Shown here one piece after another: positions 6,644-10,900 of a stretch of DNA of 64,000 nt. The DNA lies in assembly GCF_000744775.1 (NCBI RefSeq), contig NZ_JQMP01000001.1, positions 124,001 through 188,000 on the forward strand. Direction: 5' to 3'. This DNA comes from Thermorudis peleae (GTDB taxonomy: Bacteria; Chloroflexota; Chloroflexia; Thermomicrobiales; Thermomicrobiaceae). The number at the start of each line of letters is the position of its first letter. Position 1 is the stretch's first letter. Under the pieces are notes generated by a model. It made no database searches and had not been told where the DNA came from. It saw only the letters and a list, made by a program, of their open reading frames with translations. A program made the position numbers and the translations under genes.

Positions 6644-7464
6644 GCACCCCAACCAGTAAGCCCGCCATCATCCGTGAAGAGACGCCTGAGGAGCGCCAGC
6701 GCTGGCGACGCTACCGCTGGCAGCTTCTCATCGGCCCAGCCTTTGATCCGCCGATGCAGATGGCGTTAGACGAAGTTCTGACCCGCCGTGTTGGCCAGGG
6801 GCGTCGTCCGCCGACGCTGCGGTTCTGGGAATGGAGTGCGCCGGCTGTCGTCCTTGGGCGCTTTCAATCGCTGCGCAATGAAGTGAACCTTGACCTGGCC
6901 CGTCAGTATGGCATCACCGTCGTACGCCGGATTACGGGTGGCGGTGCGATGCTGACCGAGCCTGGCCGAGTTATCACGTATTCCATTTACACGTTGCCAG
7001 AGCATGTCGAAGGCCTGTCTTTTGTTGATTCCTATGCCTACCTCGATAACTGGGTCATCGCTGGCCTGCGAGCGCTCGGCATCGACGCCTGGTACGAGCC
7101 GATCAATGACATTACCTCAGCGGCTGGCAAGATTGGCGGCGCAGCCCAGGCTCGCCGTTTCGGAGCAGTCCTCCACCATGTGACGATGGCCTATGATGTC
7201 AGCCCGCAGAAAGTCGCCGAAGTCTTGCGTATTGGTCAGGAGAAGCTCAGCGATAAGGGCATTCCAAGCGCAGCAAAGCGCGTCGCACCGCTCCGGCAAC
7301 AGACCCATCTGCCGCGTGAGGTGATCATCGACCATCTCGTCGCGGTCTTCCGCGAACGGTACGGCCTTGAGCCCGGCGAACTGCTGCCCGATGAAATTGC
7401 CGAAGCCGAAGAGCTCGTGCGCACGAAGTTCGGCACCGAAGCGTGGACGGCGGCACTACCGTAG
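6640..7464 (+). CDS. lplA: Lipoate-protein ligase A family catalytic subunit
   Basis: A 274-residue BPL/LplA/LipB-fold protein. The nucleotide/lipoate-binding 'RRITGGGAMLTEPG' is followed by the catalytic-lysine region 'TSAAGKIGGAAQARRFGAV' and 'LHHVTMAYDV'. It would activate lipoate (or octanoate) with ATP and attach it to E2 or H-protein domains. Together with the small gene upstream it forms a complete two-part ligase. The usual His in the 'GGGAVYHD' position is replaced by 'GGGAMLTEP', which also occurs in LplA-like relatives, so an octanoyltransferase or biotin-related role cannot be excluded. No lipA or E2 gene is in the window. Confidence 0.85.
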   Translation: MSTPTSKPAIIREETPEERQRWRRYRWQLLIGPAFDPPMQMALDEVLTRRVGQGRRPPTLRFWEWSAPAVVLGRFQSLRNEVNLDLARQYGITVVRRITGGGAMLTEPGRVITYSIYTLPEHVEGLSFVDSYAYLDNWVIAGLRALGIDAWYEPINDITSAAGKIGGAAQARRFGAVLHHVTMAYDVSPQKVAEVLRIGQEKLSDKGIPSAAKRVAPLRQQTHLPREVIIDHLVAVFRERYGLEPGELLPDEIAEAEELVRTKFGTEAWTAALP

Positions 7465-7538
7465 CAACTGGTGACTTCACGTTGAGCACGGTGGCTGCGC
7501 GCGGTGCTGCATAAGAGAGCAGGCGGGGTGGCTGGAGG

Positions 7539-7556
7539 GCTTGCCGATCGGCAAGC
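7539..7556. repeat. 18-bp perfect palindrome upstream of the T-box leader
   Basis: GCTTGCCGATCGGCAAGC is a perfect palindrome 73 bases after the lplA stop and about 73 bases before T-box Stem I. It could be an operator for the ileS transcript or an lplA 3' hairpin; no U-tract follows. The 7465-7628 stretch otherwise shows nothing. Confidence 0.45.
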
Positions 7557-7628
7557 GAGCATGCTACGGTTAGCAATGAATGGGAGGCGGATGCGGATGT
7601 CTCCCGTATTCGCTTGTTGGCTTGCAAA

Positions 7629-7914
7629 GGCGATGACGGAACCAGTGCCTGCCATGTCATGCCAGAAGCGAGCCTGGGATGGTGGAAGCCAGGTGCCTCT
7701 GATGTGGCAGGAGATCGTTCCTGAGCCGCTGCCCGAACCTCCGGCAAGGGAGTAGTAGGCGCAGTCGGGAGCCGCCCGTTATTGCGGCAGGGCCATAGCA
7801 CCACGAGCATCGATGTGGCCCGTGCTCTGGCCTACTGAGCGGGTCTGCAACGTCGCAGGCCAAGCGAGGTGGTACCGCGGGTAACCCCGTCCTCGATTGG
7901 GGACGGGATTTTTG
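7629..7914 (+). promoter_or_regulatory. T-box leader, isoleucine-specific, controlling ileS
   Basis: All diagnostic T-box parts can be read. Stem I: outer GGC 7629-7631 with GCC 7725-7727, a kink-turn-like 'GATGAC/TGA' step, GGAAC 7638-7642 with GTTCC 7717-7721, then CCTGCC 7648-7653 with GGCAGG 7706-7711. The specifier loop has CAGTG on the 5' side and ATC (an Ile codon) at 7714-7716 on the 3' side. The apical part carries the AGCGAG bulge (7667-7672) and a CCTGG/CCAGG hairpin with a GGTGG loop. A Stem II-region helix AGTAGGC/GCCTACT lies at 7754-7760/7830-7836, and Stem III at 7842-7848/7855-7861. The T-box core GAGGTGGTACCGCG is at 7867-7880. GAGG 7867-7870 can pair with CCTC 7892-7895 as antiterminator, which excludes the terminator. 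Uncharged tRNA-Ile would favour read-through. Confidence 0.95.
7887..7914 (+). terminator. Intrinsic terminator of the T-box leader
   Basis: CCCGTCC (7887-7893) pairs with GGACGGG (7902-7908), extended inward by T-G and C-G pairs, around a short GATT loop, followed by ATTTTTG. Its 5' arm shares CCTC with the antiterminator, so the two folds are mutually exclusive, which is the standard transcriptional T-box switch. Confidence 0.93.
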
Positions 7915-7967
7915 TTCAGGTGCTGTCATCAGCATCATCAGCGAGGAACCGGGAGGTGTTGCCAGCG

Positions 7968-10900
7968 ATGTTCAAGCCGGTGCCGACCAAAGACGTCGAT
8001 TTCCCCGCAATGGAGCGAGAACTGCTCCGTTGGTGGTATGAGGGTGGTATTGTCCAGCAGTACCTGCGTAAGAATGCGCAGAGCCCGAAGCGCTGGTCGT
8101 TCCTCGACGGTCCAATCACGGCCAATAACCCGATGGGTGTGCACCATGCCTGGGGGCGTACCTACAAGGACTTCTACCAGCGCTTCTACACGATGCTTGG
8201 CTATCGCCAGCGCTATCAGAACGGCTTTGACTGCCAGGGGTTGTGGGTCGAGGTCGAAGTCGAGCGTGAGCTTGGCTTCCGCTCCAAGCGTGAGATTGAA
8301 GCCTACGGCATTGACCGCTTCGTCGAGAAGTGTAAGGAGCGTGTCTTCAAGTACGCCGCTATCCAGACCGAGCAGTCCAAGCGCCTCGGCTACTTCATGG
8401 ACTGGGACAACTCCTACTATACGCTCTCGGACGAAAACAACTACATGATCTGGCACTTTCTCAAAGTTTGTCACCAGAACGGCTGGATCTATCATGGCTA
8501 CGACGTCATGCCCTGGTGCCCGCGTTGTGCTACCGGCCTTTCAGAAATGGAAGTGGCTGAGGGCTACAAAGACATCACGCACTTGAGTCTCATCGTCCGT
8601 TTCCCGCTGGTGGACCGGCCAGGCGAGTCGCTGCTGGTATGGACGACGACGCCGTGGACACTCGCAGCCAACGTTGCGGCAGCCGTTCACCCTGACCTGC
8701 CGTACGTCCGTGTCCGCCGTGGTGATGAGGTGCTGATCCTCGCTAAGGATGCCTATGCGCGCCTCTTCCACGGGCAAGGTGAGGTGCTTGAAGAACTGCC
8801 AGGACAGGCGCTGATCGGTCTGCGCTATCACGGCCCCTTCGACGAGTTGCCGGCGCAACAGGGCGTTGAGCACCGGGTGATTCCCTGGGATGCTGTCGAT
8901 CCGGCCGAAGGAACGGGCATTGTCCATATCGCGCCGGGTGCTGGCCGCGAAGACTATCAGCTTGGTAAGGAGCACGGCCTTGCTACCCTCGCCCCGATTG
9001 ATGAAGAAGGCGTCTATGTCGATGGCTATGGCTGGCTCACCGGCCGCTCGGCGCAAGAGGTAGCTGAGCTGATCGCACGCGACCTCGAAGCCAAGGGGCG
9101 GCTCGAACGGGCTGAGCGGTATACCCACCGTTATCCCACGTGCTGGCGCTGTGGCACGGAGCTGCTCTTCCGGCTTGTCGATGAGTGGTTCATCGCCGTT
9201 GACCCCTGGCGTGAGCGTGTTATGGAAGCCGCGAAGACCGTGCGCTGGATTCCCGACTTCGGCCTCGAGCGTGAGCTGGACTGGCTCCGCAACATGGATG
9301 ACTGGATGATTTCTAAGAAGCGCTATTGGGGTCTTGCATTGCCAATTTGGCAGTGTCCGGAGTGTGGCTGGTTCGATGTGATCGGCAGTGAAGTCGAGCT
9401 TGGGCAGCGCGCGATTGCCGGCTGGGATGAATTCAAGGGGCACTCGCCGCATCGACCCTGGGTTGACAAGGTCAAGATTCGTTGCGAGCGCTGTGGTGGT
9501 GTCGCAAGCCGCATTCCAGATGTCGGCAATCCCTGGCTCGATGCTGGCATTGTGCCTTTCTCGACGCTGAACTATCGACACGATCGGGCCTACTGGCAGG
9601 AATGGTTCCCAGCCGATTTCATTACAGAATCCTTCCCGGGCCAGTTCCGCAACTGGTTCTACTCGTTGCTCGCTCAGAGCACTGTGCTGGTGAACCAGGC
9701 GCCAATGAAGACCTGTCTTGGCTTCGCCCTCCTCCGTGACGAGAAGGGCGAAGAGATGCACAAGAGTAAGGGGAACGCGATCTGGTTCGATGAAGCTGCC
9801 GAGCGCGCCGGTGTCGATGTCATGCGCTGGCTCTACCTGCGGCAAAATCCAGCTCAGAACCTCAACTTCGGCTGGCGTCTCCTCGATGAAGTGCGTCGCC
9901 AGTTCATCTTGCCACTCTGGAACTCCTACGCCTTCTTTGCCAACTATGCGCGGCTCGACGGCTTTAACCCCACGCTGGCACCACAGGTTCCGGTGAGTGC
10001 ACGCCCGCTGCTTGACCGCTGGATTCTCTCGCGCTTGCAAGACGTCATTGCCACCGTCCGCGAACGGATTGCTGACTACGATGCTGCGACCGCTGCCCGT
10101 GTCTTGCAGGAATTCGTCGTTGATGAGCTTTCCGGTTGGTACATCCGGCGCAATCGCCGTCGCTTCTGGAAGAGCGAGCATGACGAAGACAAGGTAGCTG
10201 CCTACCAGACGCTGTATACTGTCCTTGTGACATTGACAAAACTGCTTGCGCCGTTCATCCCCTTCTTAGCTGAGACGATGTACCAGAACCTCGTGCGCAG
10301 CGTTGATCCCACGGCTCCGGTTTCAGTGCATCTCACCGATTATCCTGAGGCCGATTCTGCGCTGCGTGACCCTGCCCTCGATGACGCGATGGCGTGGTTG
10401 CTCCGGGCGGTTGAGCTGGGCCGCGCGGCCCGGAGCAAGGCCAATGTCAAGGTCCGCCAGCCTCTGCCGCGCGTCGTCGTTGCCACCCGCAGTGCACAGG
10501 CACGTGCGGCGATCGAGTTGCTGCAAGATCAGTTGCTTGACGAGCTGAACGTGAAGGCGCTCGAACTGAGCGATCGGCCTGAGGACTACCAGACCTATCG
10601 CATCCGCCTCAATCTGCCAGTCCTCGGTCCGAAGCTTGGCCCGCTCGTTCCCAAGGTGCAAGCCGCAATTGCGCAACGCGATCCCGCTGAAATCGCTTAC
10701 CTGGCTCGGACAAGTCGGCCAATTACACTGTTGGTCGATGGTGACGAGCTGACGCTTGCTCCCGACGAAGTGCTGGTCGATGTACTCGACCGCGACGGCT
10801 TTGCCGCCTTTGCCGATCGTGACCTGCTCGTCGCTGTCGATTTGACCGTCACACCAGAGTTGCGGCTTGAGGGGCTGGCACGTGACATTGTTCGCCACGT

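Follow-up and report, generated by a model that had tools for sequence, protein, structure and literature searches.

A T-box leader with the features of class I and of tRNA-Ile specificity precedes ileS in Thermorudis peleae

The isoleucine--tRNA ligase gene (ileS) of Thermorudis peleae is preceded by a T-box leader that is almost certainly of class I, the transcription-terminating kind, with specificity for tRNA-Ile. The leader occupies 7624-7914 on the plus strand of the window, by which we mean the whole 64,000-nt stretch analysed (contig NZ_JQMP01000001.1, positions 124,001 to 188,000), and ends 54 nt upstream of the ileS ATG at 7968. Its sequence, its conservation, the covariation in Stem I, the match to the genome's tRNA-Ile and the two competing folds are all observed directly, and the leader is an ordinary element, one more member of the long-known T-box family. 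An initial annotation made from the letters alone had proposed a complete Ile T-box at this site and had named in advance a covariance search with the T-box model, RF00230, as a check. In a sensitive Rfam search of 7450-8000 that model matched 7624-7897 over its full length (positions 1-219 of 219, 81.6 bits, E = 3.5e-18), and the proposed T-box is thus real. Matches to TLS-PK3, WT1-AS_3, anti-hemB and SECIS_3 in the same region fell far under their own gathering scores and are regarded as chance hits.

Leaders for comparison were sought among the best 80 of 251 ileS loci. A strict T-box core was looked for between 600 nt upstream and 60 nt past the start codon and was present in at least 32 of the 80, a lower bound because the other 48 were screened by the strict motif and not by covariance, and because little or no upstream DNA is available at a few of them (L016, L073, L078 and L040).

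What places the leader in class I is its 3' domain, in which a terminator, consisting of a hairpin and a U tract, shares a strand with an antiterminator and excludes it. The T-box core AGGTGGTACCGCGG lies at 7867-7880, exactly where it had been annotated. The two antiterminator helices, A1 and A2 (Table 1), flank a 7-nt bulge, UGGUACC (7870-7876); A2 includes a terminal G7877-U7890 pair, and A1 has four pairs in the computed fold. The terminator reads CCCGUCCUC-GAUU-GGGGACGGG, followed by AUUUUUG. Because its 5' strand, CCCGUCCUC at 7886-7894, is also the 3' strand common to both antiterminator helices, the two folds are mutually exclusive. The initial annotation had drawn the terminator at 7887-7908 with CCTC shared between the folds; the hairpin and the overlap hold, the coordinates move by one base (to 7886-7907) and the shared segment is larger. 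This is the single terminator found in 7400-8000, where shuffled sequences gave a mean of 0.2, and none of 200 shuffles folded as stably (z -3.25). As drawn, the terminator state is the more stable of the two (-30.3 vs -25.7 kcal/mol), and when folding stops at 7900, with the terminator 3' strand incomplete, the best fold of the segment from 7836 is Stem III plus the antiterminator. Across 13 leaders (the window's and 12 of the 32; L020, L022 and L029, one of them with masked bases, were excluded), 127 of 130 antiterminator cells (97.7%) and 117 of 117 terminator cells are paired, against 52-62% in antiterminator controls with slid partners, counts that speak for conservation and not for covariation because the strands hardly vary. 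Since the hairpin is followed by a U tract, control of ileS would probably be transcriptional, as the initial annotation had held.

Evidence from covariation comes from Stem I. This domain comprises a GC base with K-turn bases (the K-turn being read from the sequence only), the helix GGAAC/GUUCC, a specifier loop containing AUC, a long upper helix that starts at C7648-G7711, the AG bulge AGAAGCGA and the distal loop GGUG. In 16 leaders, namely the window's and 15 of the 32 relatives, more distant leaders having been excluded, 91.2% of 351 cells in 22 pairs are paired and two-sided changes occur in 12 of the 22 pairs (36 cells). Neither the paired fraction nor the number of two-sided changes was reached in any of 500 shuffles, and controls in which the partner was slid by 1-3 columns gave 30-42% pairing. 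The helices were drawn after the alignment had been viewed, and at first the helix below the AG bulge was not counted, since the window's leader does not form it; on that count, 97.6% of 287 cells are paired, with two-sided changes in 9 of 18 pairs. Pairing of the individual helices runs from 87.5 to 100%, with the helix below the AG bulge as the exception at 62.5%. The full-length Stem I, which the initial annotation had set against the ultrashort forms of some actinobacterial ileS leaders, is borne out by its alignment to the covariance model; it is not special among the relatives, which share a long Stem I.

The specifier was identified by comparison. AUC stands shortly 5' of the conserved Stem I 3' end in 33 of 33 ileS leaders (the window's and the 32), which were selected by T-box core and not by AUC, and which are not independent because some are near-identical. 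The base preceding it varies (G in 16, A in 6, C in 6 and T in 5). A frame one base upstream, taking the triplet that directly follows GAA in relatives and is often GAU, was therefore rejected, and the comparison arrives at the same ATC that had been annotated. An anticodon scan covering 30 of the genome's 48 tRNA matches found a tRNA-Ile(GAT), whose discriminator is A; as a result both the AUC specifier with the GAU anticodon and the UGGU bulge with the ACCA end (A73) fit when the sequences are read against each other. Excerpts of the TBDB paper (PMC7778990; the papers cited here are all drawn on in excerpt) state that 99% of Ile T-boxes use AUC as their specifier.

The elements between Stem I and the antiterminator are those of the family, with one addition. 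Stem II carries an S-turn and aligns to RF00230 with one non-standard model pair. For the IIA/B pseudoknot, a script that picks the best helix, and so leans towards finding one, could place a IIB helix in all 16 leaders (4-7 pairs, counting G-U), with GTCGC/GCGAC and GCTGC/GCAGC among the compensating changes. The RRRxG-Stem III-AA arrangement is as described in PMC7583486, in the part drawn on here. The addition is a hairpin of 44 nt between IIA/B and Stem III, at -18.6 kcal/mol not significant by fold and weak when taken alone (z -1.51; 19 of 200 dinucleotide shuffles and 14 of 500 single-base shuffles equally stable). The insert is absent in L009-L012; in the remaining 11 relatives the sequence at this position is longer, and a further hairpin before Stem III was read in the predicted fold of 10 of those 11 (not L020).

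Several observations weigh against the assignment. The RF00230 score lies under the gathering score of 93, and for this reason a default Rfam scan of the whole window at gathering thresholds returned no matches. The specifier loop reads AGUG on its 5' side and GAG on its 3' side in place of the consensus AGUA/GAA, a motif that 13 of 15 relatives retain, L007-L014 among them, with L017 and L018 deviating too; we treated this consensus as usual and not as required for membership of the family. Of the four pairs in the helix below the AG bulge only one, a G-U, is left. The antiterminator and terminator strands are nearly invariant over the 13 leaders, which makes a covariation test uninformative, and at L007 and L015 the terminator hairpin has no clear U tract. 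Structure folding, also named beforehand as a check, upheld the terminator and was weaker by energy elsewhere: z is -2.01 for the whole 286-nt leader (4 of 200 shuffles equally stable), -1.45 for Stem I alone (14 of 200) and -1.65 for Stem III plus antiterminator (12 of 200), folding energy alone being the weaker kind of evidence. When the leader is folded as a whole, the foot of Stem I pairs with the IIA/B region in the best structure; the best fold of 7836-7914 contains the terminator and loses Stem III.

Two other explanations draw on these observations. If the leader were a translational T-box acting by Shine-Dalgarno sequestration, it would resemble the ileS T-boxes of Mycobacterium and Nocardia, described as translational in the excerpted PMC7583486, and the hairpins of L007 and L015 would fit such a scheme. 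It is very hard to reconcile with the window's strong hairpin, which is followed by UUUUU and ends 60 nt before the start codon, or with the retention of the hairpin in 13 of 13 aligned leaders; the arrangement expected of class II is not found, as a terminator is present and the Shine-Dalgarno sequence (GGGAGGUG, ahead of the ATG) lies outside it. Alternatively, the T-box might have decayed and lost its response to tRNA-Ile, as could be suggested by the altered specifier loop, the low covariance score and the broken helix below the AG bulge. Yet the 3' domain is intact, the window's Stem I shows paired changes not shared with the others (U-A at columns 22-87, A-U at 26-83, C-G at 48-69 and U-A at 50-67), and RF00230 places sister ileS leaders in the same score range (each of the 8 relatives searched gave between 73.5 and 111.9 bits), which together make decay highly improbable as well. 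Finally, the extra hairpin and the altered specifier loop, which L017 and L018 share in part, could together define a thermomicrobial Ile T-box sub-type that makes additional contacts to the tRNA or the discriminator domain, a suggestion that we consider unlikely.

By analogy with the T-box family, we infer that the class I leader binds tRNA, senses its charge and terminates transcription. Stem I would read the GAU anticodon of tRNA-Ile through AUC at 7714-7716. When the tRNA is uncharged, its 3' A-CCA would pair with UGGU of the T-box bulge (7870-7873), stabilising the antiterminator at 7865-7895 so that RNA polymerase continues into ileS. The 3' end of a charged tRNA could not be held; 7886-7894 would then pair with 7899-7907, and transcription would halt at the U tract of the terminator so formed. 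Judged by its features, the leader should switch ileS on when uncharged tRNA-Ile builds up.

Table 1. Features of the ileS leader and its surroundings, in window coordinates
Feature	Coordinates	Strand	Basis
Candidate promoter, TTGCCG - 18 nt - TACGGT	7541..7570	+	Visual comparison with sequence upstream in L007, L008 and L015
Stem I: K-turn base, specifier loop, AG bulge, distal loop	7629..7726	+	RF00230 alignment
Specifier AUC (Ile)	7714..7716	+	AUC in 33/33 ileS leaders; tRNA-Ile anticodon GAT
Stem II with S-turn (GAA 7735-7737 / AGTA 7754-7757)	7729..7764	+	RF00230 alignment
Stem IIA/B pseudoknot (IIA CGGG/CCCG; IIB GCCGC/GCGGC)	7766..7788	+	Helix match by script
Extra hairpin, IIA/B to Stem III	7790..7833	+	Insert in RF00230 alignment; outside Rfam consensus
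RRRxG (GAGCG 7837-7841), Stem III 7842-7861, AA 7862-7863	7837..7863	+	RF00230 alignment, fold
Antiterminator: A1 7865-7869/7891-7895, A2 7877-7881/7886-7890	7865..7895	+	Fold
Intrinsic terminator hairpin, then ATTTTTG	7886..7907	+	Terminator scan, fold
ileS, isoleucine--tRNA ligase, 1063 amino acids	7968..11159	+	TIGR00392, 722.7 bits (cut-off 621.4)

The gene downstream gives the only TIGR00392 match over cut-off in the genome, and the leader before it points to tRNA-dependent control of the sole isoleucyl-tRNA synthetase found in this thermomicrobial genome. The product of ileS has the Pfam domains tRNA-synt_1, Anticodon_1 and DUF5915, scores 675.8 bits against the MupA model, far under that model's cut-off of 1900, and is closest by sequence to the solved structures 8c8w and sister entries, then 1ile. 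Among the best 80 of 251 loci its nearest relatives are from Thermomicrobiaceae, at no more than 79% identity, followed by other Chloroflexota. Literature joining IleRS2 with a T-box was not found, nor, in a limited search, any joining a T-box with Thermomicrobium or Sphaerobacter.

Upstream of the leader a sigma-70 consensus scan found no promoter; the candidate in Table 1 was placed by comparison with L007, L008 and L015, in which TTGACG is followed after 17 nt by TAGGGT or TACCGT. The stretch that follows the candidate promoter appears to be shorter in those three loci than in the window, where the fold of 7577-7628, ahead of Stem I, is a separate hairpin (-18.6 kcal/mol).

T-boxes are widespread in these genomes, with a match in 40 of 41 (T. 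peleae and 40 relatives), the single genome without one being 54% complete. By the strict motif, 12 ileS loci titled Ktedonobacteria (Thermogemmatispora, Ktedono- and Dictyobacter; L030, L031, L033, L034, L042, L044, L051, L057, L063, L064, L070 and L071) had no T-box core within 600 nt upstream, and SAR202-titled loci had one in 4 of 6, again by strict motif only.

The T. peleae genome has six T-boxes, before leuS, leuA, trpE, ileS, thrS and lysX. Three of the six score below 93 bits, and the default Rfam threshold thus misses T-boxes in such GC-rich genomes. The leuA T-box (L002, G000:C4:657867-658096) has the specifier CUC and the bulge UGGC; the tRNA-Leu examined (GAG, CAG) have discriminator A, which sets C against A at the fourth pair, an exception to the usual UGGN match. 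The UGGU bulge of the trpE T-box (L003, G000:C4:478522-478792) meets discriminator G of tRNA-Trp in a G-U wobble, a pairing that excerpts of PMC7778990 report at the discriminator in 46% of Trp T-boxes in TBDB. The thrS T-box (L005, G000:C3:1273647-1273903) pairs a UGGA bulge with discriminator U of tRNA-Thr(GGT), a match kept by a two-sided change relative to ileS, leuS and lysX. The lysX T-box (L006, G000:C1:335233-335487) lies upstream of a LysX-type lysine biosynthesis gene and probably has the specifier AAG (Lys), a single base separating GAA from this codon as in the ileS leaders. Two of the six follow a tRNA gene on the same strand: 42 nt separate the end of tRNA-Ala(GGC) (L001, 1759-1831) from the leuS T-box, and 83 nt lie between the end of tRNA-Val(GAC) (L005, 1841-1917) and the thrS T-box.

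Set beside known systems, the ileS T-box raises no new question. Like the class I family of RF00230 it gives a full model match with Stem I, Stem II, IIA/B, Stem III, an antiterminator with UGGN bulge and a terminator; unlike that family it falls under the gathering score, has a changed specifier loop and carries about 44 nt of extra hairpin before Stem III. To our knowledge, the translational ileS T-boxes of Mycobacterium and Nocardia have no terminator, in contrast to the long Stem I and the terminator found here. With those leaders, as excerpts of PMC7583486 present them, the T. peleae leader shares tRNA-Ile, the Stem II S-turn and the IIA/B pseudoknot. Chloroflexi are among the few groups with T-boxes according to the part of PMC3766115 drawn on, and a 2008 paper had already linked a T-box with an Ile tRNA ligase in this phylum (PMC2494555, in excerpt); the latter case concerns the same gene kind in another class of the phylum and is likened here by description, not by sequence. 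Close counterparts too are the ileS T-boxes of Thermomicrobium, Thermalbibacter and Sphaerobacter (L007-L014), which retain AGUA/GAA and, in L009-L012, lack the extra hairpin, and which share with the T. peleae leader the position before ileS, the AUC specifier, the antiterminator and the terminator hairpin.
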